From contig NZ_JANINI010000002.1 of NCBI RefSeq assembly GCF_024580145.1, positions 248,001 to 312,000 on the forward strand: 64,000 nucleotides of DNA, given 5' to 3'. Positions 7,431 through 51,411 of the stretch are shown here, piece by piece; the stretch's first letter is position 1; the number at the start of each line of letters is the position of its first letter. The translations under genes and the position numbers were made by a program. Under the pieces are notes generated by a model that did no database searches, was not told where the DNA came from, and was given only the letters and a program-made list of their open reading frames with translations. The DNA comes from Methyloversatilis sp. XJ19-49 (lineage in GTDB: Bacteria > Pseudomonadota > Gammaproteobacteria > Burkholderiales > Rhodocyclaceae).

Positions 7431-8558
7431 GTGCCCAGCCTGTTGCCCAATGTCGACCCCCAGGGGCTGCTCGAGTATTCGGTCGTGTACACCGACCGCG
7501 CGCTGAACCACATGTCGCAGTCCTTCCAGGGCGTCATGAAGGACATATCGCGCGTGCTCAAGCAGGTCTACAACGCAAAATCGGCGGTCGTCGTGCCGGG
7601 CAGCGGCACCTTCGGCATGGAAGCTGTAGCGCGCCAGTTCGCCACCGACAAGAAGGTGATGGTCATCCGAAACGGCTGGTTCAGCTTCCGCTGGACGCAG
7701 ATATTCGACATGGGCCGCATCCCTTCCGAATCCGTCGTGCTGAAGGCGCGCCAACCGGTGCCCGGCTCGCAGAAGGCGTTCGCGCCGCCACCGATCAGTG
7801 AAGTGGTCGCCGCCATCCTCGAACACAAGCCGGCCGTGGTGTTTGCACCGCAGGTTGAAACGTCGGCCGGCCTGCAGCTGCCGGACGATTACCTGCGCGA
7901 GGTCGCCGCCGCGGTGCGCGAAGTCGATGGCCTGTTCGTGCTCGACGCCATCGCCGCCGGCACGCTGTGGGTGGACATGGGCGCACTGGGCATCGATATC
8001 GTCGTCAGTGCGCCGCAGAAGGGCTGGAGCGGTTCGCCGTGCGCCGGGCTGGTGATGCTGGGCGAGCGCGCGCGTACGCGCATCGATGCGACCACCAGCA
8101 CCAGCTACGCCGCCGACCTGAAGAAGTGGCTGCAGATCATGGAAACCTACGAAGGCGGCGGCCATGCCTATCACGCCACGCTGCCGACCGACGGTCTGAC
8201 GCAGCTGCGCAATGTCATGCTGGAGACCGAAAGCTTCGGCTTCGACAAGGTCAAGGCCAACCAGATCGAGCTGGGTCGCCAGATCCGCGCGCTGATGGAA
8301 GCGCGCGGCTTCGAAAGCGTCGCCGCCGAAGGTTTCAAGGCGCCGTGCGTCGTGGTCAGCTACACGAGCGATCCGGATATCCAGAACGGGAAGAAATTCA
8401 TGGCGCAGGGCCTGCAGATCGCCGCCGGCGTACCGCTGCAGGTCGACGAACCGGCCGACTTCCGCAGCTTCCGCATCGGCCTGTTCGGTCTGGACAAGCT
8501 GCAGAACGTCGAACGCACGGTGCAGAACTTCAAGGCGGCGCTGGACAAGGTCGAGTAG
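7431..8558 (+). CDS. class V PLP-dependent aminotransferase (alanine/serine-glyoxylate type)
   Basis: 375 residues starting at the GTG at 7431 (VPSLLPNVDPQG), 7 nt after a GGAG. The fold-type I, class V pattern is clear: PGSGTFGMEAVARQF, an Asp block VLDAIAAGTLWVDMG, and the PLP lysine in SAPQKGWSGSP. Relatives transfer the amino group from alanine or serine to glyoxylate. A role in glyoxylate handling next to a Calvin operon is plausible, but substrate cannot be told from sequence. The last 29 nt overlap the end of the convergent hoxJ-like gene. Confidence 0.85.
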   Translation: MPSLLPNVDPQGLLEYSVVYTDRALNHMSQSFQGVMKDISRVLKQVYNAKSAVVVPGSGTFGMEAVARQFATDKKVMVIRNGWFSFRWTQIFDMGRIPSESVVLKARQPVPGSQKAFAPPPISEVVAAILEHKPAVVFAPQVETSAGLQLPDDYLREVAAAVREVDGLFVLDAIAAGTLWVDMGALGIDIVVSAPQKGWSGSPCAGLVMLGERARTRIDATTSTSYAADLKKWLQIMETYEGGGHAYHATLPTDGLTQLRNVMLETESFGFDKVKANQIELGRQIRALMEARGFESVAAEGFKAPCVVVSYTSDPDIQNGKKFMAQGLQIAAGVPLQVDEPADFRSFRIGLFGLDKLQNVERTVQNFKAALDKVE

Positions 8559-9924
8559 TTTCGGCCGGGCCAGCGGTCGAGCGCGGCAGGTCGAGCACGA
8601 ATTCCGCACCGCCCTCCGGGTGGTTGCGGGCGGACAGTACACCGCCGTGCTGTTCGACGATGCCGTAGCTGATCGAAAGGCCGAGGCCGGTGCCCTTGCC
8701 GACCGGCTTGGTCGTGAAGAACGGCTCGAAAATACGTGACAGGTACTCGTCGGGTATGCCCGGTCCGTTGTCGCGCAAGCGCATGCGCACCCGGTCGCCT
8801 TCGTTGGCGCAGCTCAATGTGAGTTCGGCGACCTGATCCTCGGTGCCGGCGGCATCGTAGGCGTTCTGCAGCAGATTCATCACCACCTGTTGCAACTGAC
8901 CGGCGCTGCCGGTGACCACACAGGGCTCGCGCGTCGCCCAGTGCAGTGCAACGGCCGCGCTGGTGCCCTTGTGTATCCAGTGGATGGCCCGCTCGATCAC
9001 GGCATTGAGATCGACTGCGCTGCGCCCTTCCGGGTCAACGGCGGAAAAGCGCTTCAGCCCGTTGACGATGTCGGCGGTGCGCTGCGCGCCTTCCATCGTG
9101 CCTTCGATCAACGACGGCAGATCCTTCAGCAGATGTTCGATGCGCAGCGCGGCGCGCAGCGCGGCCAGTTCGGCGTCCGACGCCCCGGCGTGCACGGCGT
9201 CGATGTAGCGGCCCATGCGTTCGCTGTACTTCTTCAGCGCGTGAACGTTGCCGAGCACGAAGCTGATCGGATTGTTGAGCTCGTGCGCGACTCCGGCCAC
9301 CAGACGGCCGAGCGACGCCATCTTTTCCGAATGCAGCAACTGCTGCTGCGCCAGTTTCAGCGCCTCGTGCGCCTCGCGCAGCTCGTGGTAGGCACGCTTC
9401 AGTTCGGCGGTGGGCCGGCCGACCAGCACGGTGCCGGCGCGCCGGCCGTTGCGCGTGAAACGCGGCGTCAGATTGGTGTCCACCGGCACCCCGGCGCCCG
9501 CGGCGTCGCGCAGGTTCAATTCGACCGCCTCACCCCGGCGCGACGGATTGGCATCATCGAGCACACCGCGCATGCGGGCGCGGCTTTCGTCGTCGGCCAG
9601 CAGCGCGAACACCGGCGTACCGCGCAACGCGTCGTCGCTGCGCCCCACCAGCTCGCACAGTGCGGCGTTGGTTTCCTCGATCTCGCCGCGCTCGTTGCAC
9701 ACCAGCAGCACGTCCGACATCGCCGACATGACGCTGAAGATGAACTGCTGCGACTGTTCCAGTTCGACGTTCTTCTGCTCGAGCGCGATTTCGTCGCTGA
9801 CCAGCTGCGAATACACCTCGTCCATGCGCTGGATCACGTCCAGCCAGGTCGCCTCGTCCACGCCTTCGATATGGGCGCGCGCGAGCAGAGCTTCGGTGTT
9901 GGCGGATTTCGGGCGTTCGGTCAT
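8530..9924 (-). CDS. hoxJ: PAS sensor histidine kinase of the HoxJ/HupT type
   Basis: 464 residues, no transmembrane segment, so cytoplasmic. A helical N-terminus precedes a PAS domain (about 65-170), a coiled coil and the kinase core: H-box [20 protein letters not shown] with phospho-acceptor His214, N-box [17 protein letters not shown] and [17 protein letters not shown]. The H-box region, with NNPISFV-GNVHAL-KY, resembles HupT/HoxJ, the kinases that relay H2 sensing from HupUV/HoxBC to HupR/HoxA. The matching hoxB, hoxC and hoxA lie upstream in the same direction. The assignment to that pathway is inferred from similarity and context. Confidence 0.82.
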
Positions 9925-10006: not shown

Positions 10007-12133
10007 TCAGAAGCGTGCGCTCAGGGTGAAGCGCATGCTGCGTGGTTCGACCGGATGGAAATGACGGTCATCAATGCCGCCCGCCGCTTCGCCGCGCAGG
10101 CGAGAGGTGTAGAAGTACTCGATGTCGTTGTCACCGCTGTCGAACAGATTGAACACGTCAAGCATCAGCCGCAAGTCGCGGCTGAGCCGGTGGCCGACGC
10201 GCAGGTAGGCCAGCGTGGTCGAAGCGGAACGTTCGGAGTTGTCCTCGACCAGCGGACGCGGGCCGACGTGGCGAAGCTGCAGGTGACCGAACCAGCCGTT
10301 CGCCAGCGGATTGTCGTCGGTCAGGCTCAGGCCGGCAGCCACGACGCGGTCGACAGCGCCCGGCACGTGATTGCCGACCGGATCGCTTTCGGTGAAGCGG
10401 GCGCGCGAGGCAGCTACATCCAGATCGAACAGCAGCCACGGACGCATCGTCCAGCGGTTGTTCCACTCGACGCCGCTGCGCCGGCTGGCCCGGTTGGGCT
10501 CGGTTTCACCGGCATCGCCGACGAACAGCAGTTCCGAATCCAGCTTCAGCGTCCACACGGCGAGGGAGCTTTGCAGACCCGGTATGATTTCCGTACGTAC
10601 TCCGACTTCGCTGCCCGTGGTGCGCACCAGCGCGTCCACCGGATCGGTCGGCAGCCCGCCGCGGGCGGTGACACGTGCAGTGGTACCGCGGGCATCGTTG
10701 CTGTGGAAGCCGTTGCCAAAGTTCACGAAGTACTCGGTGCGCGCCCACGGCCCGAAGATGAGCGACAGCTTGGGTGACGCGATGTGGTCATTCGCGTCGC
10801 CACTGTTGGCGGCGATCGAACTGCTGACGTCGAAGTCGTAGTGGTCCAGGCGCAGGCCGGCCAGGCTGCGCAGCCAGGGCGTCCATTGCACACTGTTTTC
10901 GCCGTACAGGCCGACGCTGGTCTGGCGCACGTCGCTCTGCTGGGTCACGCCGGTGGTGCGGCGCGCGACCGTGGTGTAGAGCCCGACCGGGCTCAGCCGG
11001 TCGTGTCGCACCTGCACGCCCAGCGTGTTGGTCATCGGGAGCCCGGCGAGCCGGCCGTCCCAGCTTCGACTGGCGGTCATGCCCAGTACCTTGCGCTGCT
11101 CGGACTGACGGAACTGGTCACCGTCGGCCGGGTTGTCGAGGAAGTAGGTGAAGTTGGACCATAGATCCAGTTCGGACTGGATGGCGTAGACGTTGAAGCG
11201 GAACGCGCCGTCGTCATAGGCGCGCTGGTGGTTCACCGACAGGCTGTAGCGCTGCGTCTTTCCGCCATCCGTCGGGTCCACCGTACCGTAGCGGTCGATC
11301 AGGCCGGACTGCACGGCGCGCAGCGGAATCTGGTCCGTCGAATCCCAGCGTGAGGTGTAGGCCATCGCGGTGACCGAGGTGCGGTTCGCACCTTCACCCA
11401 GGGTGTAGCGCAATACGCCGTTGATGCGCCGGAAATCTTCCGGGTTTTCCCACGGGCCGTCGTTGCGCGAAGTTTCGAGCGCATAAAGGAGGGTGCCCGC
11501 GCCGGCTTCATGGGCATTCATCAGCAGCGCGCGCCGGTAGCCGTCCTTGCCGATGCTGACTTCGGCCGTGCCGTAATCGAGCCGGTCGCGCAGGCCAAGG
11601 CGAGCCGAGCCGGCAGAGGCGAAGTCGCCCTCCTCGGCGTAGTAAGGACCCTTGCGGTAATCGATGCGCCCAATCAGCTCCGGTATGAGCCAGTTCAGGT
11701 CGGTGTAGCCGTGGCCGTGCGCGTGCGTCGGCATGTTGGCGGGCATGCCATCTATATAGGTGGCGAAGTCGGTGCCGTGGTCGAGGTTGAAGCCGCGCAG
11801 GAAGTACTGGTTCGCCTTGCCGCCGCCACTGTGCTGCGTGACGATGACGCCGGGCACGAACTCCAGCACCTCGGCCGGGCGAAGCGTCGGCCGGTTCTCG
11901 ATCAGACGCGCCGTGACGCGGCCCTGACTCGCTGCATCGGAGCTGCCGACCGCATTGTCGTAATGCCCCTCGACCGTCACTGTATCCAGCTTGTGGGCGG
12001 ACGGCGTAGCCTCATGGGCCAGCGCGGTGCCCCACGCCCCGATGACGGGCACGCAAAGCGCCCCGAACATCCCCCTTCTCAAGGTCACTGCAGCGAGCAA
12101 GTCTTTCGCCGACACAACTCTATGCCTGTTCAC
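10007..12133 (-). CDS. TonB-dependent outer-membrane receptor, probable nickel uptake
   Basis: 708 residues if started at the GTG at 12133. The reading frame runs 500 bp further upstream without receptor similarity. A signal peptide (GMFGALCVPVIGAWGTALA, preceded by two Arg) leads to a TonB-box-like segment (HKLDTVTVEG), the plug domain (RPAEVLEFVPGVIV, YFLRGFNLDHGTDFATYIDG) with a His-rich loop MPTHAHGHGYTD, and a barrel ending in the terminal aromatic FTLSARF. It lies directly downstream of nikR and has a NikR-box-like sequence 7 bp before the start. Nickel or a nickel chelate is therefore the inferred cargo. An alternative GTG is at 12115. Confidence 0.88.
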   Translation of the reverse strand: MNRHRVVSAKDLLAAVTLRRGMFGALCVPVIGAWGTALAHEATPSAHKLDTVTVEGHYDNAVGSSDAASQGRVTARLIENRPTLRPAEVLEFVPGVIVTQHSGGGKANQYFLRGFNLDHGTDFATYIDGMPANMPTHAHGHGYTDLNWLIPELIGRIDYRKGPYYAEEGDFASAGSARLGLRDRLDYGTAEVSIGKDGYRRALLMNAHEAGAGTLLYALETSRNDGPWENPEDFRRINGVLRYTLGEGANRTSVTAMAYTSRWDSTDQIPLRAVQSGLIDRYGTVDPTDGGKTQRYSLSVNHQRAYDDGAFRFNVYAIQSELDLWSNFTYFLDNPADGDQFRQSEQRKVLGMTASRSWDGRLAGLPMTNTLGVQVRHDRLSPVGLYTTVARRTTGVTQQSDVRQTSVGLYGENSVQWTPWLRSLAGLRLDHYDFDVSSSIAANSGDANDHIASPKLSLIFGPWARTEYFVNFGNGFHSNDARGTTARVTARGGLPTDPVDALVRTTGSEVGVRTEIIPGLQSSLAVWTLKLDSELLFVGDAGETEPNRASRRSGVEWNNRWTMRPWLLFDLDVAASRARFTESDPVGNHVPGAVDRVVAAGLSLTDDNPLANGWFGHLQLRHVGPRPLVEDNSERSASTTLAYLRVGHRLSRDLRLMLDVFNLFDSGDNDIEYFYTSRLRGEAAGGIDDRHFHPVEPRSMRFTLSARF

Positions 12134-12139
12134 GTTCTT

Positions 12140-12167
12140 GTATGAAGAAACTAAAAACTTAGCATAA
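12140..12167 (-). promoter_or_regulatory. candidate NikR operator
   Basis: The + strand reads GTATGA, 16 nt, then GCATAA. The E. coli NikR box is GTATGA-N16-TCATAC, so the left half is identical, the right half matches at 4 of 6 positions, and the spacing is exact. It ends 7 bp before the receptor GTG, where binding would block the promoter or ribosome site, and the surrounding DNA is unusually AT-rich. A nikR gene is encoded about 115 bp away. Confidence 0.7.
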
Positions 12168-12282
12168 AAGGGAAAGATTACAGTTGGTGGACGCTGGCCG
12201 AATCCATGTTCCGGCGTGACAACCACCGTCCGGTGATCGGTCTTCGGCAGCTCGGTTCGGTGCGCCGGAGGCAGCGCTCGTG

Positions 12283-12783
12283 TCAGGTGGTCGGCTTGAT
12301 GTGCACGTGGCCATGTCCGCCGCGCGCGTGCCGCCGCGTATAGCTGTGCCCGCCGGGCCCCGCGTGGTGGTGGCCGGCATCGAGCTCGACGCTGATCAGG
12401 TTGATCTGGCCATGATGCACGCCGCGCTCGGCGCACACCGCGTCGGCGAACTGCCGCACCGCCGCGATCTCGCCCTTCAGGATGACGGTCTCGAGGCAGT
12501 GGTCGTGGTCGAGATGGGCGTGCATCGACGACACCGTGAGGTCGTGGTGTGCGTGCTGCAGGCTGATGATGCGCTCGGCCAGGTCGCGTTCGTGGTGATT
12601 GAACACGTACGACAGGCAGGCCACGCAATGCGTCGCGCTGCCCGTCTGCTGGGCCGTGCGGTCCAGTTCGGCACGGAACAGGTCACGCACCGCCTCGGAG
12701 CGGTTGCCGTAGCCGCGCTGCGCGATCCAGTCGTCGAACTGGGCGGCCAGCTGGTCGTCAAGGGATATGGTGAAGCGCTGCAT
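12283..12783 (-). CDS. nikR: nickel-responsive regulator NikR with His-rich C-terminal tail
   Basis: 166 residues. The N-terminal ribbon-helix-helix domain (MQRFTISLDDQLAAQFDDWI, YGNRSEAVRDL) is followed by the ACT-like nickel domain. Ligands equivalent to E. coli His76, His87, His89 and Cys95 are His77, His88, His90 and Cys96 (MHAHLDHDHCLE). The protein is about 30 residues longer than usual, with a His-rich tail from residue 138 (HHHAGPGGH, HGHVHIKPTT). It begins 13 nt after hoxC and is probably co-transcribed with it. The likely target is the adjacent TonB receptor. Confidence 0.93.
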   Translation of the reverse strand: MQRFTISLDDQLAAQFDDWIAQRGYGNRSEAVRDLFRAELDRTAQQTGSATHCVACLSYVFNHHERDLAERIISLQHAHHDLTVSSMHAHLDHDHCLETVILKGEIAAVRQFADAVCAERGVHHGQINLISVELDAGHHHAGPGGHSYTRRHARGGHGHVHIKPTT

Positions 12784-12796
12784 GCGGACTCCGTTG

Positions 12797-14248
12797 TCAG
12801 TGCACGGTGCACACCATGCAGGGATCGAAGGATCGCACGATATGCTGCACCGCCACCGGCGTGGTTTCGCCATCGCGCACCGGCGCGCCTTCGAGCGCCG
12901 ATTCCAGCGCGCCGGGCCGGCCGGCGGCGTCACGCGGCGAGAAGTTCCAGGTAGTGGGCGCGACGATCTGGTAGTTGGCGATGCGACCTTCGCGTACCGA
13001 AATCCAGTGGCCGAGGCTGCCGCGTGCCGCTTCGCCGAGGCCGGCGCCGCAGCCTTCGTCCGGCAGCCGGCCGGGCGAGCAGAAGGGCTCGCCCGGCCGC
13101 ACGGCGCGCAGCCAGTCCTCCACCATGATCACCACGCGCGCCAGTTCGAGCAGGCGCGCGACGACCCGGGTGTAGACCGTGCCGCCGTAACGGCCGACCA
13201 GATCGACGATGAGCGGATGGCCACTTGCCAGTTGACGCGCGATGGCGCCGGTTTCGACCACCTCGCCGGCCAGCCGCGGCGCCTTGTTCCAGGTGTAGGC
13301 GCCAGCCTTGTCCGGCTCCGGCAGCGTGACGCCGCTGCGCGGATGCTGCGGACCGCCGGCGTCGCTCAACCAGGCGTGGGTGGCGTCTTCGCGGATGGCG
13401 GCCGGGTCGAGCGGCGACAGCGCGCCGGCGTGCCACACACCGGCCCCGAGTGCGGTACTGCCGTCCGGCTGCGGGTAGGCGCCGTAGCTCAGGAAGCGGC
13501 CGGGGCCGGCACCGAGCGTGGCCAGCGCCGCATCGCGCGCGACGGTCAGGAAAAAGCGCAGGTCGCCGTTCAGCGGATCGGCCGCGTGCCAGGCGTCGAG
13601 CGCCGCTTCCGACTCGAGCGCGGCCACCTGTTCCAGCGGCGCGGCATAGGTGCGGGTTTCGAGGAAGCGGCGGAACTCGCGCACGCGCGCCAGCAGGCGC
13701 ACCTTTTCTGCCGCGTCGATGGCGCGCGTCGAACCACCCGGATCGATGCTCTGCGTGTGCGGCCACTTGCCGGCCAATGTGCCGAGCAATGTGAACCAGC
13801 GCTGGCGCGCGGCGATCGCTGCTCGCACCTGTTCGCCGCTCTGCGGCGTGAAGCGGCGCACCGCCTCGGCATGCCAGGGCCGGCCGGCATACACCGGCCG
13901 CACGAAGTCGGGCATGAAGAACAGGTAGAAGTGAGTCAGATGATCGGCCAGGTTTTCGGTGGCGAGGATCACATTGGTGACGTGCTGGCCGTTGGCCGGC
14001 ATCGCGATGCCGCCGAGCGCGGCCAGCGCGCGCGCCGCCGCCACCGACTGCGACACCGAACAGATGCCGCAGATGCGCGGCACATACACCAGCGCGTCAT
14101 GCGGCTCGCGCCCGCGCAGGATCTGTTCGAAGCCGCGGTACATCGGCGCGTTCACGTGCGCCGACGCGACGCGACCATCGACCACGTCCAGCGTCACCTC
14201 GAGATCGCCTTCGACGCGGTTGAAGGGGCCGACGAGGAGGCGGGTCAT
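12797..14248 (-). CDS. hoxC: regulatory (H2-sensing) [NiFe]-hydrogenase large subunit
   Basis: 483 residues from MTRLLVGPFNRVEG; the longer frame upstream is not conserved. Both NiFe-site motifs are present: L1 RICGICSVSQ near residue 57 and L2 DPCMVCTVH at the C-terminus. The protein stops at that His, so there is no C-terminal peptide for a maturation protease. This is diagnostic for HoxC/HupV of H2 sensors rather than for energy-converting enzymes. It pairs with HoxB and would signal to HoxJ. Its partner hoxB ends about 940 bp upstream, with an opposite-strand gene in between. Confidence 0.92.
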   Translation of the reverse strand: MTRLLVGPFNRVEGDLEVTLDVVDGRVASAHVNAPMYRGFEQILRGREPHDALVYVPRICGICSVSQSVAAARALAALGGIAMPANGQHVTNVILATENLADHLTHFYLFFMPDFVRPVYAGRPWHAEAVRRFTPQSGEQVRAAIAARQRWFTLLGTLAGKWPHTQSIDPGGSTRAIDAAEKVRLLARVREFRRFLETRTYAAPLEQVAALESEAALDAWHAADPLNGDLRFFLTVARDAALATLGAGPGRFLSYGAYPQPDGSTALGAGVWHAGALSPLDPAAIREDATHAWLSDAGGPQHPRSGVTLPEPDKAGAYTWNKAPRLAGEVVETGAIARQLASGHPLIVDLVGRYGGTVYTRVVARLLELARVVIMVEDWLRAVRPGEPFCSPGRLPDEGCGAGLGEAARGSLGHWISVREGRIANYQIVAPTTWNFSPRDAAGRPGALESALEGAPVRDGETTPVAVQHIVRSFDPCMVCTVH

Positions 14249-14511: not shown

Positions 14512-15165
14512 ATGACCACACACCAAACGAGCACCCTGCTTCGTCGCCACGCCGCGCTGGCTGCCCTGATGGGCGGTCTGGTACTTGCGCCGGCTGCCCA
14601 CGCGGCGAACTACACATTCGATGTGCTGTACGAAGGCGCAGGTGTGGCCGCTCTTGCCGCCGGCAGCGATGATCCGGGCGCCACCGTGCTCTACGACGGC
14701 GACACCTTCGTCTGGACCCTGTCCATCGTCGGCGATCGTTATTGGGAAGTACTCGAATCGGGCGATTTCTTTCCGCTGATGGCCTTCGGCGTCAGTGAAG
14801 CCGGCGACCGCACCGTGGACTACATGCTGACGCTCTACAACGACACGACCGAAGTATTCAGCGATACGGCGGCAGATGTGGTGAATTCGTCCGTGCATCT
14901 CGGTACCAACACCATCACGCTCGACGCCGGTGTCAAGTTCGACAGCATGCGTCTCGAACTGATGCTGATCAGTGCGACGGAAGACGGCAACCCCGCCGTC
15001 GCGATAACAACCTCGCCCTCCGGGCTGCTGCCCATCTTCGGCGCACCGGAACAGAACACTTTCTATCCGGGCATCGTGCTGGCGCCGATACCGGAGCCGC
15101 AACCCTGGGCGCTTGCCATTGCGGGCCTGATCACGCTGGGCGCGCTGAGCCGCCGCCGGCGCTGA
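14512..15165 (+). CDS. PEP-CTERM exported protein of unknown function
   Basis: 217 residues, ATG at 14512 preceded by AAGGAAAG. Signal peptide (LAALMGGLVLAPAAHA), a beta-rich acidic domain with no recognised motif, and a C-terminal PEP-CTERM anchor (IPEPQPWALAIAGLITLGAL then SRRRR). It resembles many lineage-specific PEP-CTERM surface proteins. It lies on the plus strand between hoxB and hoxC, which are normally adjacent, so it looks like an insertion into the regulatory hydrogenase operon. No hydrogenase role is suggested by the sequence. Confidence 0.82.
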   Translation: MTTHQTSTLLRRHAALAALMGGLVLAPAAHAANYTFDVLYEGAGVAALAAGSDDPGATVLYDGDTFVWTLSIVGDRYWEVLESGDFFPLMAFGVSEAGDRTVDYMLTLYNDTTEVFSDTAADVVNSSVHLGTNTITLDAGVKFDSMRLELMLISATEDGNPAVAITTSPSGLLPIFGAPEQNTFYPGIVLAPIPEPQPWALAIAGLITLGALSRRRR

Positions 15166-15185: not shown

Positions 15186-16181
15186 TCATTTCAGCCGCGT
15201 CCGCCGGGCCACCGGCGGCACGACGACATGGTCCGACACGGCGTTCACCTTCACCCGCTTCGGCGTGGCCGATTTGGATAGAGAGGCGAGCGCGACGAAC
15301 CAGGCCTTGGGCATGTCGGTCGGCAGGCCGATCGGGATGCCGGCGATCTTCGGCGTGGCGTGGAAGGGGTGGCCGGGTTCCTGGAAGCCGGGTTCGGTGC
15401 AGCTGATGCAGGCGTAGCCGCCGCGCGTGCACGAGCCCTCGCCGTTCCACGGCCGGGTGTTGCAGTCGGCGTGCGCCTGCGTGCCCTTGCAGCCCATGTT
15501 TTCCATCATGCAGCCGAGGTCCGAGGGCTTTTCCGCGCTGGCCTTGAATTCGTAGTACTCGTTGCGCGTGCAGCCGTGGTGCACCAGCTGGTCGGCGTAG
15601 AAGCGCGGCCGGCCCAGCGTGTCGAGGTCGTCTTCCGCGAAGCTGTCGGCGGCCAGCGCCATCAGCGTGTCCAGCACCCAGCTCGGATGGGTCGGGCAGC
15701 CGGCGATATTGATCACCGGCAGGCCGCCGTGTGCGCGGAAACCGGCACCGAGCAGGCCGCCGCGCACGTCGTCCTCGTACTGCAGGCCGCAGGCGTCGGT
15801 CGGGTTGTCGCCACCCGCGGTGATGCCGCCCCAGGCGGCGCAGCTGCCGATGGCGATCACATGGCGCGCCTTTGCGGCGAGCTTGCGCACCCATTCGACC
15901 ATCGGCACGCCGGTGCCGGCCATGACATGGAAGCGGCCGGTGCCGTTCGGCCCGCGCAGCAGCGACCCTTCAACGCACAGCGCATCCAGCGGCAGATCGC
16001 CATCAAGGATGCGGCCGAGCAGCGCGGTCACTTCGTTGCCGCTGTCCAGCGACAGCGATGGATGCCACAGCAGATCGATGCCTGCATCGCGCAGCTGACC
16101 GTGGAAATCGTCGGTATCGGCGCACAACAGCGACATGCTGCAGCCGCCGCAACCGCCGGACTGCAACCAGAGCACGTTCAT
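15186..16181 (-). CDS. hoxB: regulatory (H2-sensing) [NiFe]-hydrogenase small subunit
   Basis: 331 residues starting MNVLWLQSGGCGGCSMSLLC. It lacks a Tat signal, as expected for the cytoplasmic HoxB/HupU. Fe-S cluster cysteines are in GGCGGC, IGSCAAWGG, NIAGCPTHP, and the C-terminal HHGCTRNEYYEF / LGCMMENMGCKG / CISCTEPGF region. The proximal motif GGCGGC lacks the extra Cys of the membrane enzyme's ECTCC. It overlaps the end of hoxW by 4 nt. Confidence 0.93.
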   Translation of the reverse strand: MNVLWLQSGGCGGCSMSLLCADTDDFHGQLRDAGIDLLWHPSLSLDSGNEVTALLGRILDGDLPLDALCVEGSLLRGPNGTGRFHVMAGTGVPMVEWVRKLAAKARHVIAIGSCAAWGGITAGGDNPTDACGLQYEDDVRGGLLGAGFRAHGGLPVINIAGCPTHPSWVLDTLMALAADSFAEDDLDTLGRPRFYADQLVHHGCTRNEYYEFKASAEKPSDLGCMMENMGCKGTQAHADCNTRPWNGEGSCTRGGYACISCTEPGFQEPGHPFHATPKIAGIPIGLPTDMPKAWFVALASLSKSATPKRVKVNAVSDHVVVPPVARRTRLK

Positions 16182-16672
16182 GCATTCACTCCTTCGGTGT
16201 GCGCGCCGCCGGTGACGGTGTCGTGCAGCCAGCGGCGCGCCCGGGCGAGCGCCTGTTCGAGATCGGCCGCGGCCTGCGCATCCGGCTGCTCGCCCAGTTC
16301 CCAGCGGCGGCCACGGATGGCCAGTACATCACACACCGGCGGTGGGCGGCGCTGCAGGTCGACGAACACCTGCAGCAGCGCTTCCGGCGACAGCGCGTGG
16401 CTGGTGATCCGGCGCTCGCGCTGCGGCTGCACGCTGCGCACCTCATAGGCGGCATCCAGACCGCGCGCGGCGTCGACGAACAGCACGCGGTCGCGGCCGA
16501 CCAGGTCGAGCGCGTGCTCGATCTGCAGCTGGTAGTCGTTGAGGCAGTCCACGCTGCCGGCGGGCAGGGCGCGTCCGGCATACGCCGCCAGCGCATCGAC
16601 CAGCATCGGGCCGAGCGCGTCGTCGCCGCGGCTCGGATTGCCCCAGCCCAGCACCAGCAGCGGCGCCGTCAT
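16178..16672 (-). CDS. hoxW: hydrogenase maturation protease of the soluble hydrogenase
   Basis: 164 residues, HycI/HoxW peptidase family: LLVLGWGNPSRGDDALGPML at the N-terminus with the nickel-sensing acidic residue in GDDALGP, and a FVDAARGLD block. It trims the C-terminus of the large subunit after nickel insertion. Position directly after hoxH, with ATGA overlaps on both sides (16669-16672 and 16178-16181), points to HoxH as substrate. The N-terminal extension of the ORF to 17968 is a shadow of hoxH. Confidence 0.9.
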   Translation of the reverse strand: MTAPLLVLGWGNPSRGDDALGPMLVDALAAYAGRALPAGSVDCLNDYQLQIEHALDLVGRDRVLFVDAARGLDAAYEVRSVQPQRERRITSHALSPEALLQVFVDLQRRPPPVCDVLAIRGRRWELGEQPDAQAAADLEQALARARRWLHDTVTGGAHTEGVNA

Positions 16673-18189
16673 TGCGCCGCCTCGGCGTCGTGCGCCTGGC
16701 CGTCGCGCAACAATTCGCCGGTCGAACTGCGCAGCACGTGGTCGAGCACGCGGCCGTCGGCTGCGCGCAGGCTCACCGCCAGCGGCATCTGGCCAAGCGC
16801 GTGCGTGGCGCAGGACAGGCAGGGATCGTAAGCGCGGATGGCCACCTCGATGTGGTTGAGCAGGCCTTCGGTAATCGTTTCGCCATCGAGGTAGCGCAGC
16901 GCCACCGTGCGCACCGCCTCGTTCATCGCCTGGTTGTTGTGCGTGGTCGACACGATGAGGTTGCAGCGCGTGACCAGATCGTCGTCGCCGACTTCGTACT
17001 CGTGGATCAGCGTGCCGCGCGGCGCCTCGATGATGCCGATGCCGGAGCGCTGGCGCGGCCCTTCCGCCTGCAGCGGACCGCCGGTGATGAGCGGATCGTC
17101 GAGCAGCGCCGCCACGGTTTCGACGCCGTGCAGCAGTTCGACCATGCGCGCCCAGTGGGTGGCCAGCACGGCGTGCACCGGCCGCCCGCCGTGCGCGGCG
17201 ACGAAGGCCTGACGCGCCGCTTCGGCATTCGGCGTCGGGATGAAGTCGCAGTTCTGCACGCGCGCCAGCGGACCGACGCGGTACCAGCCGTCGTCGACAC
17301 CCAGGCTGCGGCGGTAGGGGAATTTCATATAGGTCCACGGCCGCACCGCCTCGTCGATCAGCTCGCGGTAGCGCTGGTCGTCGAAGCCGTCGACCGCGAT
17401 GCGCCCGTCGGACTCGCGCAGCCGCAGCACGCCGTCGTACAGCTCCATCGCGCCGTCGTGGCCGACCAGCGACATCATGGCAGCAGGGGTGTCGGCGAAG
17501 TCGGCGTAGCGGGTCGGCAGATTCTCGTGCAGCCGGCGGGCCAGCGTCACCGCGTCCTGCGCCCAGGCCAGCACCTGTGGCAGTTCGGCGCGCAGCGCGT
17601 CGCGCTCGGCCGGATCGACCGCGCGGTTCATGCCGCCGGGTATCGAGCCGGTGCCGTGAATCCGCTTGCCCGAGGTGATGCGGATCACCTCCTGCCCGAA
17701 CTTGCGCAGCAGGATGCCCTGACGCGCGGCGTCCGGAAAGGCCGCGGCCACGCCGACGATGTTGCGCTGGTCGACGCCCGCGTCGAAGCCGAACAGCAGG
17801 TCGGGCGAGGCGAGGTGGAAGAAGTGCAGCGCGTGGCTCTGCACGATCTGGCCGTAGTGCATGAGCCGGCGGATGTGCTCGGCCGCCGGCGGCACCGGCC
17901 AGCCGCCCGCCACGCGGTCGAGCGCCTTGGACGCTGCCAGATGGTGCGACACCGGGCAGATGCCGCACAGCCGCTGCACCATGACCGGCACTTCCCAGTA
18001 CGGACGGCCTTCGATGAATTTTTCGAAGCCGCGGAATTCAACGATGTGCAGCCGCGCCTGACGCACGCGGTTGTCGTCGTCGAGCAGCAGCGTCACCTTG
18101 CCGTGGCCTTCGACGCGCGACAGCGGGTCGATCGCGATGCGGCGCAGGCCTGCGGGGTTGTCGGCGGTTTCGAGCGGGCGCGTGTTCAT
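16669..18189 (-). CDS. hoxH: NAD-reducing [NiFe]-hydrogenase large subunit
   Basis: 506 residues. The NiFe-site motifs are L1 RLCGICPVSHH near residue 73 and L2 AYDPCLSCATH near the C-terminus, followed by a cleavable extension ALGQMPLAVSL. Group 3d features such as CDFIPTPNAEAARQ are present. It forms the hydrogenase dimer with HoxY and passes electrons to the HoxFU diaphorase. The upstream junction with hoxY is broken by an inverted-repeat element whose end supplies AGGA 5 nt before the ATG, so translation may start from element sequence. Confidence 0.95.
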   Translation of the reverse strand: MNTRPLETADNPAGLRRIAIDPLSRVEGHGKVTLLLDDDNRVRQARLHIVEFRGFEKFIEGRPYWEVPVMVQRLCGICPVSHHLAASKALDRVAGGWPVPPAAEHIRRLMHYGQIVQSHALHFFHLASPDLLFGFDAGVDQRNIVGVAAAFPDAARQGILLRKFGQEVIRITSGKRIHGTGSIPGGMNRAVDPAERDALRAELPQVLAWAQDAVTLARRLHENLPTRYADFADTPAAMMSLVGHDGAMELYDGVLRLRESDGRIAVDGFDDQRYRELIDEAVRPWTYMKFPYRRSLGVDDGWYRVGPLARVQNCDFIPTPNAEAARQAFVAAHGGRPVHAVLATHWARMVELLHGVETVAALLDDPLITGGPLQAEGPRQRSGIGIIEAPRGTLIHEYEVGDDDLVTRCNLIVSTTHNNQAMNEAVRTVALRYLDGETITEGLLNHIEVAIRAYDPCLSCATHALGQMPLAVSLRAADGRVLDHVLRSSTGELLRDGQAHDAEAAQ

Positions 18190-19670: not shown

Positions 19671-21499
19671 GCCTGCGTGTCCGTATGCAGATGCGCGCCC
19701 GCGTCGCTGCGGCCGGTGGCGCGGCGCGCCGACGACAGTTCGGCGTCGAGGTCGATGTCGGGCTGAAACTGGGGCGCGGTCGCGCGCTGCGCATATGCTT
19801 CGCCGAAATGCCGCAGCGTGTCGCGCAGCGGATTGCAGGCCGACGCACCGAGGCCGCAGTGGGTGCCGCTGTGCAGCACCGTATCGAGATCGTGCAGGCG
19901 TTCGATGTCGAAGGCCGACGCGCTGCCTGCGCCGCGCGCGTGCGCCAGCTTGTCCAGCCGCCGCACCACCAGTTCGGTGCCGACCCGGCAGGGCGTGCAC
20001 AGGCCGCAGCTTTCGTGCGCGAAGAAGCGGGCGAAGTGGCGCGCCACTTCAAACAGATCGCGCGAGCGGTCGAACACCATGAAGGCGCCGGCGCTCGGCA
20101 CGTCCTCGAAGGCGATGGCGCGGTTGAATTCGGACGCCGGCACACAGGCGCCGGACGGCCCGCCGACCTGCACTGCCTGCACGTCGCGGGCGCCGCAGTC
20201 GTCGAGGATCTGCGCAATGGGTGTGCCCAGCGGATATTCGTACAGACCGGGCCGCGCGCAGTCGCCGGACACCGAATGGATTTTCGTACCGGTTGATTGC
20301 GCGGTACCGATGCCGGCCCACCAGGCGCCACCGCGGCGCGCGATATGGGCGACCGCGCAGAAGGTTTCGACGTTGTTCACCACGGTCGGCCGGCCGAGAT
20401 AACCGGCCTGCACCGGGAAGGGCGGACGGATGCGTGGCGTGCCGCGCTTGCCTTCCAGCGATTCGATCAGCGCCGATTCCTCGCCGCAGACATAGGCGCC
20501 GGCACCCAGGTGGATGGCGATATCGAAGTCGAAACCAACGACGCCGCACGCGTCACGGCCGAGCAGGCCTTGGGCGCGGCGACGCACGAGCACTTCTTCG
20601 AGCTGCGGTAGCAGGTAGCGGTATTCGCCACGCAGGTACAGAAAGCCCTGCTGCGCGCCGACCGCACGCGCCGCCGCCGTCATGCCATCGAACACGGCAT
20701 CGGCATGACTCGCCAGCAGCACGCGGTCCTTGAAGGTGCCAGGCTCGCCCTCGTCGGCGTTGCAGACGACGCAGCGCAGCGGACCCGGCGCGTCGCGACA
20801 GGCCTGCCATTTGCGTGCGGTCGGGAAGCCTGCGCCGCCGCGTCCGCGCAGGCCGGACTGCGCCACTGCGTCGAGCAAGGCCTGCGGCGGCTGCGCGAGC
20901 ACCACCGGCAACGTCGGCGCATCGGCGGCCAGACCGCTCAGCAGCACGTCGGCGCGCTGCACGCCGTCGATCACGTCGAACCACGCCGCCGGCCACTGCT
21001 CGACCGGCGTGCCGGCCAGCAGCAGATCGGCCAGCGCATCGACGCGTGCCGCGTTGAGCCGGGTAATCACCTGATGGTGATTCACCAGCAGCGCCGGCCC
21101 CTGGTCGCACAGCCCGGTACAGGAACAGCGGTCGACGCTGAAACGGCCCTGCGCCTCGATTTCGCCAGGCGCCACGCCGAGGCGTGCGCAAAGTTGCGCC
21201 AGCAGCGCTTCGCTGCCCAGCATGCGGTCGGTGATGTTGTCGGAAAACAGAATCCGCGTGCGGCCGACCGGGCGGGTGTGGAAGAAACGGTAGAAGCCGG
21301 CCACGCCTTCGACCTGGGCCAGCGTGAGGCCGAGCGCGGCGGCGATGTGGGCAAGCAGCGGGCGCGGCAGCCAGTGCGTGACGGCCTGCGTTTCGCGCAG
21401 CACCTGCACCAGCGCGAGCGGATCACGCTGCCAGCGGTCGAGCACCGCGTCGGCGGCCGCCCGCGCCGCCTCGCTCGCGATGTCCGCAGCGTCGCCCAT
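19667..21499 (-). CDS. hoxF: soluble hydrogenase diaphorase flavoprotein subunit
   Basis: 610 residues from MGDAADIASEAARA. The N-terminal ~160 residues are a NuoE/HoxE-like thioredoxin fold (VEGVAGFYRFFHTRP, DRCSCTGLCDQGP) fused to a NuoF-like core with the NAD/FMN glycine loops GRGGAGFPTARKW and HLGAGAYVCGEESAL, and a C-terminal [4Fe-4S] site ESCGLCTPCRVG. It reduces NAD+ with electrons from H2. Its ATG overlaps the hoxA stop (TGATG). No separate hoxE is present, as expected from the fusion. Confidence 0.95.
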   Translation of the reverse strand: MGDAADIASEAARAAADAVLDRWQRDPLALVQVLRETQAVTHWLPRPLLAHIAAALGLTLAQVEGVAGFYRFFHTRPVGRTRILFSDNITDRMLGSEALLAQLCARLGVAPGEIEAQGRFSVDRCSCTGLCDQGPALLVNHHQVITRLNAARVDALADLLLAGTPVEQWPAAWFDVIDGVQRADVLLSGLAADAPTLPVVLAQPPQALLDAVAQSGLRGRGGAGFPTARKWQACRDAPGPLRCVVCNADEGEPGTFKDRVLLASHADAVFDGMTAAARAVGAQQGFLYLRGEYRYLLPQLEEVLVRRRAQGLLGRDACGVVGFDFDIAIHLGAGAYVCGEESALIESLEGKRGTPRIRPPFPVQAGYLGRPTVVNNVETFCAVAHIARRGGAWWAGIGTAQSTGTKIHSVSGDCARPGLYEYPLGTPIAQILDDCGARDVQAVQVGGPSGACVPASEFNRAIAFEDVPSAGAFMVFDRSRDLFEVARHFARFFAHESCGLCTPCRVGTELVVRRLDKLAHARGAGSASAFDIERLHDLDTVLHSGTHCGLGASACNPLRDTLRHFGEAYAQRATAPQFQPDIDLDAELSSARRATGRSDAGAHLHTDTQA

Positions 21500-22947
21500 C
21501 AACCCTCCAGCCCGAAGCGCACCATCTTTCCACGCAGACCGACGCGCGACAGGCCCAGTTCCTTGGCGGCGCGCGTCTTGTTCCAGCGGTGGCGCAGCAG
21601 GGTTTCGCGCAACACCATGGCTTCGATGGCATCCAGCCGCTCGGCCAGCGTGCCGCTGGCCGGCAGCGGGGTGGCGCTGGCCGTGGCGGTCAGGCCGGCC
21701 TGACCATGCAGCACGCGCAGCGACAGCGACTGCGCCTCGATGCGTTCGCTGTCGCTCAACGCGAGCGCGCGCGCCAGTTCGTTGCGCAGTTCGCGGATGT
21801 TGCCGGGCCACGGGTAGCCCATCAGACAGGCCATCGCCTCATCGCTCAGCGAGGCGCCGGGGCGCCCCAGTTCGATGCCCACCTCATCGATTACGCGGCG
21901 AGCGATCGGCTCGATGTCGCCGACCCGCTCGCGCAGCGGTGGCACGGTGAAGGTGGCGCCGGCGATGCGGTAATACAGATCCTCGCGGAACAGCCCTTCG
22001 CGCACCCGCTGTTCGAGCTCGCGGTGGGTGGCGGCGATGACGCGCACGTCCACCGGCAGCGCGCGTGTGCCGCCGACCGGACGCACCTCGCCTTCCTGCA
22101 GCACGCGCAGCAGGCGCACCTGGAAGGCGGGCGATGTTTCGCCGATCTCGTCGAGGAATACGGTGCCGCCGTCGGCGCGCTGGAACAGCCCGATATGGTC
22201 TTCGTAGGCACCGGTGAAGGCGCCGCGCTTGTGGCCGAACAGTTCCGATTCGAGCAGGGTTTCCGGTATCGCCGCGCAGTTCTCGACGACGAAGGCGCCG
22301 CCGGCGCGCGGGCTGGCGTAGTGGATGGCGCGCGCCAGCAGTTCCTTGCCGGTGCCGGATTCGCCGAGCACCAGAACCGACAGGTCGTAGCGCGCGACGC
22401 GCGCCGCCATTTCGCACACTGCATCGAGCGGGCTGCCGGGCGCGCGCTCGATGCGGTCGAAGCCGAAGGTCTTGCGCGCGCGCTCCAGCCTGTGCGCGGC
22501 ACGCTGACGCAGCACCGGCGTGGCGGTGCGCAGTTCGAGGTCGAGGCGGGCGGTTTCCTGCTGCAGCGTCTGCGCTTCAGCGGCGTTGCGCACGGTGGCC
22601 AGAAGGTGGTCGGGCACCCAGGGCTTCAGGATGTACTGGTAGATGCCGGCGTCGTTGATGCCGGCGATGATGTCTTCCGAATCGGTGTAGCCGGAAATGA
22701 CGATGCGCACGACGTCGGGCCAGTGCTCGCGCACCTCTTTCAGGAACAGCACGCCGGTCAGCCCCGGCATGCGCTGGTCGCACAGGATGACGTTCACCTC
22801 GTGCCGCTCCAGCAGCTGGCGCGCGTCGTCGGCACCGCTTGCGGTCAGCACGGAGAAGTCCTCCTCCAGCGTGCGGCGCATCGCGTCCTGCGAGCGCACT
22901 TCGTCGTCGACCACCAGCACGGTGGGCAGGCGCAGCGTGGCGTTCAT
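21499..22947 (-). CDS. hoxA: NtrC-family activator of hydrogenase genes
   Basis: 482 residues. Receiver domain (VVDDE, acceptor Asp57 in ILCDQRMPG), AAA+ sigma54-interaction domain with Walker A GESGTGKE (195-202), GAFTGA loop (242-247) and DGGTVFLDEIGE, then a Fis-type helix-turn-helix (TRAAKELGLSRVGLRGKM). GAFTGA means sigma54-dependent promoters. HoxA/HupR activate hydrogenase operons and are controlled by HoxJ/HupT with the HoxBC sensor. It lies between hypX and hoxF (4-nt and 1-nt overlaps). Confidence 0.93.
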   Translation of the reverse strand: MNATLRLPTVLVVDDEVRSQDAMRRTLEEDFSVLTASGADDARQLLERHEVNVILCDQRMPGLTGVLFLKEVREHWPDVVRIVISGYTDSEDIIAGINDAGIYQYILKPWVPDHLLATVRNAAEAQTLQQETARLDLELRTATPVLRQRAAHRLERARKTFGFDRIERAPGSPLDAVCEMAARVARYDLSVLVLGESGTGKELLARAIHYASPRAGGAFVVENCAAIPETLLESELFGHKRGAFTGAYEDHIGLFQRADGGTVFLDEIGETSPAFQVRLLRVLQEGEVRPVGGTRALPVDVRVIAATHRELEQRVREGLFREDLYYRIAGATFTVPPLRERVGDIEPIARRVIDEVGIELGRPGASLSDEAMACLMGYPWPGNIRELRNELARALALSDSERIEAQSLSLRVLHGQAGLTATASATPLPASGTLAERLDAIEAMVLRETLLRHRWNKTRAAKELGLSRVGLRGKMVRFGLEG

Positions 22948-24686
22948 CGTGCGCCGGCCTCGCGGTGCATTGCCAGATGGCGCGGCGTCCAGGCATGCGG
23001 CAGCTTGTGCACGAAGTGGTGGCGTGCGATGTGGAAGCTGGGGTCGAAGCCGTAGAAGTTGCGGTGCATGCGGGACAGTTCTTCCTGGCGGTAATCGGCG
23101 AGTGGACGGTCGGCTTCGTGGGCCGCACGCTCGATCTGTTTGCGCATCACGCGATCGCGCAGATTGTACGACGCAGCCAGCAGGCGAGCGTCCCGCACCG
23201 CCGCATCGAGCGCGTCGCGGGCCGGCACGTCGAGACTGCGGTCGATGAAGCCGATGCGCAGCGCCTCGGGCGCCGACAGCGGCAGCCGGCGCTGCATCAG
23301 CACGTGCGCAGCGTCGGCGCCGAGCCGGCGCGGCGCCAGATAGGTCCAGTATTCCGATCCGTACAGATTGCCCATGTTCCTGTAGTGCGGGTTCAGCATG
23401 ACGCCGCGCTGCGCCCACACCTCGTCGGCCGCCAGCGCGAGGAAGGCGCCGCCGGCACCGGCGTTGCCGCGCAGCAGCGACACGGTGAGGCGGTCGGTGG
23501 TGGTGATGATGTCCAGCGCGACGTCGTTCATCGCGTTGATGTTGCGCCACGATTCGTCGGCCGCGCTGTCGCCGTCGCGGTGCGCCGCCGCCTCGATGCC
23601 GTTGAGGTCGATGCCATTGCTGAAGAAGCCGTCGCCGCCAGCGATCAGCAGCAGCTGCGTGTCGCGCCGCTTCACCTCGGCCAGCGCGTCACGCAGGCGC
23701 AGACACTGCACGGTGGACATCGCGCCGTTGCAGAAGTCGAAACTCAGCACGCCGACGCGGGCGCCGCGCTCGCCGTGCTCGGTGTAGCGCAGCTCGCCCC
23801 ACTCATCGGCCGCCCGCGTGAGCGGCACGGCACGTTCGGGCAGCGTCGCGGCCTCCGCCGCAAAGGCCTGCGTCGCCGGCAGCTTGATCGGCGACGCGGC
23901 GTCGCCGAGCGCGACCGACACGCGGCCTATCCAGACACCGCCATCCACGGTACGGCGCAAAAGCGCACCGTCGCGCTGCGCCAGCACATCGCCCGGTGCC
24001 CCACCGAAACCGGCCAGCGCCTGCGCGCTCGCCGGGTGTGCGTCGAACAGCCGGCAGGGCCGGCCGAACAGCGCGTCGGCCACGCCCGGCTGGCCGTCGG
24101 ACGCACGGATCTTCGCCAGCACGGTGGCGCTGTCGTCGCGCGACCAGTCGATCGCGCGGCGCGCCTGCGGCAGCACGCCGCGCCAGCCGTCGGCGGCGGG
24201 CACGCTTTTCTGCGGCGTGTCGCAGGCGGTGAAGCGGGCGAGCGCCTGCAAAGTCGCCGCGACCGCCGCCTCGGTCACCTCGCGCCGGTAGATGTCGCCC
24301 TTGGACGCCGCACGCAGCGGGAAGGTCGCGGCCGCCCAGACCGGACCGGCGTCGAAATCGCCATCCGCCTGCAGCACGGTGACGCCCCATTCGCGCCGGC
24401 CTTCCAGAATCGCCCAGTCGAGTGCCGCCGGGCCGCGGTCGCCCGGCGGACCCGGGTGCACGACGAAGCACGGAACGGCGCGCCACACCGGCTCCGGGAT
24501 GCGCCGCTTCAGGAAAGGCGCCAGCACGAGGTCCGGCTGGAACAGCGCAACCGCCTCTTCGGTCACCGCGTCGGCGATGTCCAGTTCCACCGACAGCACA
24601 TGACCAAGCGCCGTCAGTTCGGCGTACAGACGCTGGCTCAGGCTGTTGAAGCTGTGGCACAGCAGCAGGATGCGCAGCGCCGGCAT
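22944..24686 (-). CDS. hypX: HypX, CO-forming maturation enzyme
   Basis: 580 residues from MPALRILLLCHSFNSL. The N-terminal half is a formyl-THF transferase-like domain (VVHPGPPGDRGPAALDWAI, VTVLQADGDFDAGPVW); the C-terminal half is an enoyl-CoA hydratase-like domain (SFDFCNGAMSTVQC, GGDGFFSNGIDLN, GNAGAGGAFLALAADEV). HypX converts the formyl group of formyl-THF to CO for the NiFe(CN)2CO site and is typical of bacteria that make hydrogenase in air. Placed between hypE and hoxA with 1-nt and 4-nt overlaps. Confidence 0.94.
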   Translation of the reverse strand: MPALRILLLCHSFNSLSQRLYAELTALGHVLSVELDIADAVTEEAVALFQPDLVLAPFLKRRIPEPVWRAVPCFVVHPGPPGDRGPAALDWAILEGRREWGVTVLQADGDFDAGPVWAAATFPLRAASKGDIYRREVTEAAVAATLQALARFTACDTPQKSVPAADGWRGVLPQARRAIDWSRDDSATVLAKIRASDGQPGVADALFGRPCRLFDAHPASAQALAGFGGAPGDVLAQRDGALLRRTVDGGVWIGRVSVALGDAASPIKLPATQAFAAEAATLPERAVPLTRAADEWGELRYTEHGERGARVGVLSFDFCNGAMSTVQCLRLRDALAEVKRRDTQLLLIAGGDGFFSNGIDLNGIEAAAHRDGDSAADESWRNINAMNDVALDIITTTDRLTVSLLRGNAGAGGAFLALAADEVWAQRGVMLNPHYRNMGNLYGSEYWTYLAPRRLGADAAHVLMQRRLPLSAPEALRIGFIDRSLDVPARDALDAAVRDARLLAASYNLRDRVMRKQIERAAHEADRPLADYRQEELSRMHRNFYGFDPSFHIARHHFVHKLPHAWTPRHLAMHREAGAR

Positions 24687-35445: not shown

Positions 35446-36069
35446 TCAGATGCGCGACGCGAACATGAACAGGCCGGCAACGCCGAGTCCGGCCGCCTGC
35501 ACGCGCCACACCCAGCCGGGCACGCGCGCCAGCGCAGCGCCGGTGCCCAGACCGATGGCGTGCAGCAGCGCCGAGCCGAGCATGAAGCCGGCGGCGTAGG
35601 TCGCGAACGACGTACCCGCCGCCCACTCGGCGCCGTGCGCCACGCCGTGCACCACACCGGCTGCGGCGACCAGCGCGAAGCCGGCGGCCGCCGGCAACTG
35701 GCGGCGTGCCTGCAGCAGCACGCCGAACAGTGCGACGCTGAGCGCGACACCGGCTTCGATGTACGCACCCGCGACACCCGCGCCGGTTTGCACGCCGACG
35801 TAGGCTCCAGCCAGCAGCGCAAGCAGGAAGAACGCCGGGCCGGACAGGCGTTGCGCAGCCGGCAGCACGGCGGCCGACCAGATGCCGACGGCGATCATCG
35901 CCAGCAGGTGATCGACGCCGGCGAAGGGATGCGCCAGACCGGCGGCCAGACCCTGTGCGTCGTGACCTTCATGCGCATGGGCGAGGCCGGCCGCCAGCGT
36001 CAGGGCAGCCGCGACGCAGACGCGGCGGACCGTGGAACAGGCCGGAAAAAAGGATGGGGACGTATTCAT
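35446..36069 (-). CDS. hupE: HupE/UreJ family nickel (or metal) permease
   Basis: 207 residues: signal peptide (VAAALTLAAGLAHA) followed directly by the HupE motif HEGHDAQGLAAGLAHPFAGVDH, then five or six transmembrane helices, one with VVHGVAHGAEW. HupE imports nickel for hydrogenase. Placing it between the large subunit and the cytochrome b gene is a variant of the usual hup order. Confidence 0.9.
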   Translation of the reverse strand: MNTSPSFFPACSTVRRVCVAAALTLAAGLAHAHEGHDAQGLAAGLAHPFAGVDHLLAMIAVGIWSAAVLPAAQRLSGPAFFLLALLAGAYVGVQTGAGVAGAYIEAGVALSVALFGVLLQARRQLPAAAGFALVAAAGVVHGVAHGAEWAAGTSFATYAAGFMLGSALLHAIGLGTGAALARVPGWVWRVQAAGLGVAGLFMFASRI

Positions 36070-49212: not shown

Positions 49213-49556
49213 CTGTGGGAGCGGCGGCCCCGCCGCGATTGATGCTTCGATTATCGCTGATCAACGCGAGTATCGCGGCGAGGCCGCCGCTCCCACAGGG
49301 ACGGCATGCTGCACAGAGACCATCGCGGCGCGATCGCGGCGGGGCCGCCGCTCCCACAGGGACAGCACGCTGCACAGAGACCATCGCGGGGCTGATCGCG
49401 GCGAGGCCGCCGCTCCCACAGGGATGGCACGCTGCACAGAGACCATCGCGGGACTGATCGCGGCGAGGCCGCCGCTCCTACAGGGACGGCACGCCGCACA
49501 AAGACCATCGCGGGGCTGATCGCGGCGGGGCCGCCGCTCCCACAAGTCCAGCTCCT
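49213..49556. repeat. REP array: one inverted pair plus direct tandem copies
   Basis: An inverted pair (49213-49239 and 49272-49298, same 27-nt arm as at 42.2 kb) is followed by four further direct copies of the right arm, all ending at a CTCCCACAG-type tail. Their spacing is 61, 62, 62 and 62 nt. Between arms is a conserved CACGCTGCACAGAGACCATC-type spacer. This is a REP/BIME-type array between the exporter and the acetamidase gene; it lacks the near-random spacers of CRISPR. Confidence 0.88.
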
Positions 49557-51042: not shown

Positions 51043-51411
51043 GCGGACGCTCCTTCTGGACAGTGGGGATGTGCAGCACCGCGTGTTGCAGTGCATCAAC
51101 CGTGCCAGACGGAAAGTCGTTAAGAATCAATGGGCGGGTGTGTGAAATTTGCCCGCTTGCGGTGCGTTGCGCACTGCAACAGGGCTCGCCGTGATGAGCA
51201 TCTCTGACCTTGCTCTGCGAGCGTGCGGGTGCAGGGCGCTGGAGCTACCTAGAGTGACGGGCTTCAGATCATTGCAACGCTGGCCGCCGCAATGCGTGGA
51301 AAGCTGTAAAGCACACTGTCCATGAAACTCGAACTTCAGTTCGACTTCCGGGTAAGCGCAAGAACCTCGGCTACCAAAAGCGTCGGGGTTCACACACAGC
51401 TTTTCCATTCA
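51043..51411. other. intergenic stretch at the edge of the defence island
   Basis: 369 bp between the acetamidase start and the HNH gene end. Only short arginine-rich or unrelated ORFs are found. Base composition is lower in GC than most of the window, including several A/T runs, which may mark an island boundary. The pair CTCGAACTTCAGTTCGACTT is a small inverted repeat near 51329-51345. Confidence 0.4.

Follow-up and report, generated by a model that had tools for sequence, protein, structure and literature searches.

The locus described here raises the question of whether a short palindrome in front of a TonB-dependent receptor gene, embedded among hydrogenase genes of Methyloversatilis sp. 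XJ19-49, is an operator through which NikR controls the import of nickel across the outer membrane. The window, meaning the whole 64-kb stretch of DNA that was analyzed, belongs to a 4.10-Mb assembly made up of 45 contigs, and the features on which the argument depends are as follows.

8530-9924, minus strand: histidine kinase, hoxJ-like (66% to a C. necator pHG1 protein)
10007-12133, minus strand: TonB-dependent receptor with a GTG start at 12133, a plug match at residues 72-175, a barrel, and a His-rich plug loop at residues 137-141
12140-12167, no strand assigned: putative NikR operator (N16) with an eroded distal half, from consensus, matrix, and congener comparison
12283-12783, minus strand: nikR, from domains and an equivalog model, with nickel ligands H77, H88, H90, and C96 kept
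12797-14248, minus strand: regulatory hydrogenase large subunit, hoxC-like (71% to a C. necator pHG1 protein)
15186-16181, minus strand: small subunit of the regulatory hydrogenase, taken as hoxB-like because it pairs with the gene at 12797-14248
16669-18189, minus strand: NAD-reducing hydrogenase large subunit, hoxH-like
21499-22953, minus strand: NtrC-type sigma-54 activator carrying a sigma-54 interaction domain, judged hoxA-like from its position, with an approximate 5' end
35446-36069, minus strand: HupE/UreJ family protein, candidate inner-membrane nickel permease
36106-37962, minus strand: membrane-bound hydrogenase large subunit
38013-39098, minus strand: membrane-bound hydrogenase small subunit with a Tat signal

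The original prediction placed three nickel enzymes in this locus, and three NiFe large subunits are indeed encoded there, together with hyp genes. In C. necator, according to PMC11540253, HoxA and sigma-54 drive the expression of hydrogenase genes, while the regulatory hydrogenase and HoxJ set the activity of HoxA. A plus-strand gene at 14512-15165, with a PEP-CTERM-like tail recognized by eye and no Pfam match, splits the hoxC-like and hoxB-like genes of the window, which are adjacent in the genome G118. In the source genome we found no NiCoT (NicO), CbiM, or DUF4198 protein and four HupE/UreJ matches. Three consecutive HupE/UreJ matches at C3:57403-59131 (L215, L217) are candidate nickel permeases.

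As predicted, nikR is the next gene, lying immediately upstream of the receptor gene on the same strand and starting 13 bp after the hydrogenase large-subunit gene. Its product contains the domains PF08753 (100.3 bits) and PF01402 (30.0 bits), scoring above the cut-off of the equivalog model NF002815 (205 bits against 83) and below that of TIGR02793 (163 against 175). The nearest solved structure is that of E. coli NikR, and alignment to 1q5v places H77, H88, H90, and C96 at the four nickel ligands, given as His76, His87, His89, and Cys95 in PMC7055735. All four are invariant in 13 aligned NikR proteins, the window's among them.

The GTG start of the receptor gene (12131-12133) aligns under the ATG of the closest congeners in a comparison of six Methyloversatilis intergenic regions. 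The encoded protein matches both PF07715 and PF00593, placing it among receptors with a plug and a barrel, and its structure model (pLDDT 81.8, pTM 0.83) has PqqU, YncD, FecA, and OprC among the best Foldseek matches. A sequence search of solved structures at E 1e-5 returned only six BtuB sequences (best E 2e-6, residues 72-195). An assignment as BtuB, for vitamin B12, was rejected on a TIGR01779 score of 28 bits against a cut-off of 600. Among the named matches listed, the nearest receptors are 90-91% identical and belong to Methyloversatilis MAGs. The His-rich plug loop of the original prediction is present, and in an alignment of 25 receptors, of which 18 come from what is here called the nickel clade and 7 from its sister clade, H139 never varies while H137 is conserved in at least 90%. 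It is no marker of nickel, however, and was rejected as nickel evidence, being common to the nickel clade and to the clade with cobalamin riboswitches described below.

The box itself, GTATGAAGAAACTAAAAACTTAGCATAA at 12140-12167, reads GTATGA-N16-GCATAA and matches the E. coli operator GTATGA-N16-TCATAC at 10 of 12 positions with exact spacing, so that the predicted match and its coordinates held. Both mismatches fall in the distal half-site and the proximal half-site is perfect. The gap to the receptor start is 6 bp (12134-12139) rather than the 7 bp first given, the GTG occupying 12131-12133. A consensus search alone was rejected as proof of the box, since its counts are at chance level both in the window (3 sites with at most three mismatches, 6.3 expected) and in the whole genome (261 such sites versus 380 for the reversed pattern); across the 4.1 Mb, 13 places have two mismatches and none has fewer. 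With a matrix trained on 45 box sites, all from outside Methyloversatilis, picked for closeness to the consensus and scored without hold-out so that the matrix leans toward the consensus, the box scores top in the 64 kb at 20.2 bits, the runner-up reaching 9.8. None of 1000 shuffles of the intergenic region attained this score, where shuffling, as in the 30-receptor scan and the comparison of boxes with nikR below, preserved base composition only. The box nonetheless scores lower than any training site (minimum 22.7, median 31.4) and lower than all five congener boxes that were scored (26.2-37.2 bits), the scored genus set being six with the window and leaving out the 3-mismatch site of G158 and the 4-mismatch site of G154. 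It is because of its position and conservation, and not because of consensus counts, that the box is more than chance, and 12140-12167 is a predicted NikR operator of the N16 type, a weak version with an eroded distal half-site.

Conservation is most easily followed within the genus. The receptor is present in 12 and nikR in 11 of the 13 Methyloversatilis genomes examined, and in none of the 13 was a NicO-family (NiCoT) permease found. Among the 11 genomes with both genes, the box has no mismatch in seven, one in G157, two in the window's genome (G000) and in G070, and three in G158. The distal half-site reads GTATGA in other congeners, GTATGC in G157, and TTATGC in the window. Eight of these 11 genomes carry a sigma-54-like sequence, TGGCACR-N4-TYGC (GG-N10-GC, 10/11 positions), that ends exactly at the start of the box; in the window and its sister genome G157 the box is kept and this element is absent. 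In G154, which has the receptor and no detected nikR, the box has decayed to four mismatches and the sigma-54-like element is retained at 9/11 positions in the same place. Outside the genus, no abutting sigma-54-like element at 10/11 was found within 100 bp upstream of 45 box sites in either orientation, and a search of the open-licence literature found neither a study of this receptor in Methyloversatilis nor a sigma-54 promoter fused to a NikR operator. One possible reading is a fused control element, in which the -12 end of a sigma-54 promoter touches the NikR operator, so that hydrogen sensing through HoxBC-J-A and nickel shortage would both be required; the lineage of the window would since have been rewired through loss of the sigma-54 promoter, with the operator retained. 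We consider this scheme plausible, albeit with somewhat less than even confidence.

Two further observations concern promoter-like elements and spacing. A sigma-54-like element, TGGCACGGTTGATGC, lies at 51093-51107 of the window, at the 5' end of the ORF listed at 49555-51099, which we take to be formamidase/acetamidase-like; the window holds two sigma-54-like matches, with about two expected by chance. Both N15 and N16 spacings occur within the genus (L011-L014, L221-L227), and since the NikR proteins concerned are 88% identical, the spacing of the half-sites seems flexible.

Relatives of the receptor (E <= 1e-60) were found in 34 and NikR (E <= 1e-10) in 66 of 150 family genomes. Upstream of 30 receptors, an N15 box with at most two mismatches is present in 14 cases (100 base shuffles: mean 0.17, maximum 2) and an N16 box in two, the window and G005; all other spacings in a control from N10 to N22 gave 0-3. 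The usual spacing in relatives is N15, which corrects the N16 reference of the original prediction. Exact N15 or N16 boxes amount to 30 sites in 26 of the 150 genomes, versus 8 for the reversed pattern. A locus was available for 26 of these sites: 12 front a NiCoT gene, 4 this receptor, 4 another TonB receptor, and 2 a DUF4198 gene, with 4 unassigned and the further 4 of the 30 sites outside this count. The order box, NiCoT permease, receptor is found at 13 of 20 family loci, and of these 13 stretches 11 include a HoxJ-like kinase, 6 include regulatory hydrogenase genes, and most include nikR. At some loci of this order another box separates the NiCoT gene from the receptor gene.

Comparing genomes with and without nikR, it is apparent that the boxes track nikR in relatives, and it is this, rather than the chance-level consensus counts, that carries the argument. 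Within about 1.65 kb upstream of the receptor and under uniform scoring, nickel-clade receptors in nikR genomes have a box with at most two mismatches in 30 of 32 cases (21 N15, 9 N16; base shuffles: mean 0.67, maximum 3), and those in genomes without detected nikR in one of four (G129, two mismatches). Sister-clade receptors have none in 14 cases, though 12 of the 14 are in nikR genomes. Similarly, among the named loci (the best 80 of 586 relatives, 79 of them scorable), a box is present at 20 of the 23 that include nikR (shuffles: mean 1.0, maximum 3) and at 4 of the 56 without (mean 1.5, maximum 6). The named and family sets overlap (L135, L136, and L137 are G156, G157, and G154; L186 matches the G062 box), so their counts are not independent, and G065 and L202, which have no upstream sequence, were left out. 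G051 and G158 have nikR and boxes only with three mismatches, and L167, L199, and L208 have nikR in the locus and no box with two or fewer. Many close receptors, 55-66% identical to that of the window, lack both nikR and a box in their vicinity (53 of the best 80 of 586 loci).

The survey of boxes also brought up other genes. A second, distant kind of TonB receptor stands behind exact NikR boxes at L072 (1-1518), L073 (1562-3028), L077 (1510-3027), and L085 (1510-3027), with 25-26% identity where matched and L077 unmatched; it is perhaps another nickel receptor family. In front of it, at L072, L077, and L085, three of the 45 sites examined above, the box is overlapped by a weak sigma-54-like element (9/11). 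At L088 (784-1491) and L094 (1540-2244), exact boxes are followed directly by DUF4198 genes, which possibly encode periplasmic nickel-binding proteins. At L168, L177, L193, and L165, which are Burkholderiales loci without nikR, a HupE_UreJ_2-type gene ends just before the receptor, as called by Pfam for L168 and by eye for the other three.

The sister clade of receptors splits from the nickel clade with 100/100 support, in trees that exclude G065 and the partial G016 and whose root was set for drawing. Upstream of its receptors and on their strand, a cobalamin riboswitch is present at 11 of 14 loci (L097-L108, L110, L111), within about 1 kb in ten and 3.8 kb away in one. No such riboswitch was found in 20 nickel-clade loci, taken from 30 nickel-clade or related ones and searched with about 1.5 kb of flank, or in the 64-kb window. 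Duganella/Massilia loci nested in the wider nickel clade have a riboswitch in six of ten cases, and another set in none of ten. From the distribution of these upstream elements, regulation by nickel and by B12 has been acquired repeatedly within a single receptor family. Because of the six riboswitch loci and the many close receptors without nikR or box, the receptor type as such is not tied to nickel. An ExbD-like coding sequence, recognized by eye, lies just upstream of the receptor at L101 and L107 of the sister clade.

Could the palindrome be a chance match in an AT-rich spot? The consensus counts would allow it, but its recurrence at the same place and register in congeners, the outcome of the shuffles, and its absence from three of four nickel-clade genomes without nikR reduce the probability to next to nothing. 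It could also be a relic in decay, no longer bound by NikR, in which case transcription of the receptor gene would start at a different promoter or continue into it from hoxC-nikR. A simple scan of 12050-12900 found no sigma-70 promoter or terminator, hence none of the latter between nikR and the receptor, and such a state would be consistent with that result, with the lowest score among all scored sites (45 training, 6 genus), and with the loss of the sigma-54-like element in the window and G157. We nevertheless regard a disused box as unlikely, if a contender to be taken seriously, as the window has an intact nikR and a perfect proximal half-site, and no other place in the 64 kb comes within 10 bits of the box.

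A different doubt concerns the substrate: the receptor might carry a cobalt complex, a cobalamin precursor, or several metals, with NikR control a local regulatory choice. The riboswitches of the sister clade and of the six nested Duganella/Massilia receptors speak for this, as does the plug motif common to both clades, whereas in genomes that have nikR, NiCoT and nikR often precede the receptor close to hydrogenase genes, and riboswitches are lacking from the window and the nickel-clade loci surveyed. On balance, a cobalt or cobalamin function seems distinctly improbable for the window receptor.

We therefore favor, with good confidence, the reading in which the receptor imports a nickel complex to the periplasm and its gene is repressed through 12140-12167 by NikR carrying nickel. 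The tracking of nikR by boxes and the loci in which a box heads NiCoT and receptor support the NikR-repressed nickel importer of the original prediction. In this scheme, which we infer from gene context and upstream elements, the TonB-dependent receptor at 10007-12133 would take nickel, presumably in complexed form, across the outer membrane, and binding of nickel-loaded NikR to the operator would shut off the receptor gene. The inner-membrane step would proceed via HupE-type proteins, because no NiCoT or CbiM was found in the genome. In most members of the genus, the operator lies directly behind the sigma-54-like promoter, so expression of the receptor there probably requires an NtrC-type activator plus nickel shortage; HoxA may be the activator acting on this promoter in Methyloversatilis.

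The locus offers a dense comparative case of nickel receptors in free-living bacteria with hydrogenases. The two sister clades, one with NikR boxes and the other mostly with cobalamin riboswitches, provide matched pairs for nickel versus cobalt specificity, and G154, in which nikR is missing and the box has decayed while the promoter-like element survives, serves the operator as a natural control. Should the fused sigma-54/NikR element work as proposed, a cell would import nickel solely under a combination of hydrogen supply and nickel shortage. To our knowledge, experiments on nickel receptors of the outer membrane have been done mainly in H. pylori. The table in PMC7142613 points the same way. 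The original description of nickel TonB receptors in hydrogen oxidizers as little characterized may hold for experiments, but not for prediction, as such receptors are already listed as predicted nickel/cobalt transporters.

Among known systems, pHG1 of C. necator H16 is close in layout: hoxB, hoxC, a HoxJ-like kinase, and hoxN are followed about 4 kb on by a receptor 49.6% identical to that of the window. Unlike the window, however, the 20-kb stretch of pHG1 contains no N15 or N16 box with at most two mismatches; the nikR-HoxN-receptor locus of Paraburkholderia acidisoli likewise has none. E. coli provides the closest solved NikR and the reference operator at nikABCDE, GTATGA-N16-TCATAC in PMC7055735, whereas the target here is an outer-membrane receptor and most relatives use N15. 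FrpB4 of Helicobacter pylori is reportedly a NikR-repressed nickel receptor, as proposed here. It is set apart by its placement in Region I, whereas the receptors predicted for nickel and cobalt fall together in Region VIII (PMC2771747).

The nearest parallels are those predicted receptors. PMC3400609 places Bll6948, Daro_3944, RPA_4757, pHCG3_081, and Daro_1684 in one nickel/cobalt cluster; PMC7142613, citing Rodionov 2006, gives Daro_3944 as predicted for nickel and Daro_1684 for cobalt; and PMC11247825 names Daro_3944 among known nickel receptors. A single cluster unites nickel and cobalt predictions, like the nickel and sister clades here. The Afipia pHCG3 receptor, presumably pHCG3_081, is 45.7% identical over 95% and adjoins a divergent nikR, the interval between the two genes holding an N16 box with one mismatch; a possible likeness to Daro_3944 is judged from the published listing, from this pHCG3 relative, and from a pattern of NikR or riboswitch control that agrees with expectation for that type. 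Unlike these predicted receptors, those of Methyloversatilis occur without NiCoT, and in most members of the genus the operator is joined directly to a sigma-54-like promoter. The kind of receptor is known, having been predicted before in Daro_3944 and pHCG3_081, and the added value of the present case is the genus-level arrangement and its natural experiments.
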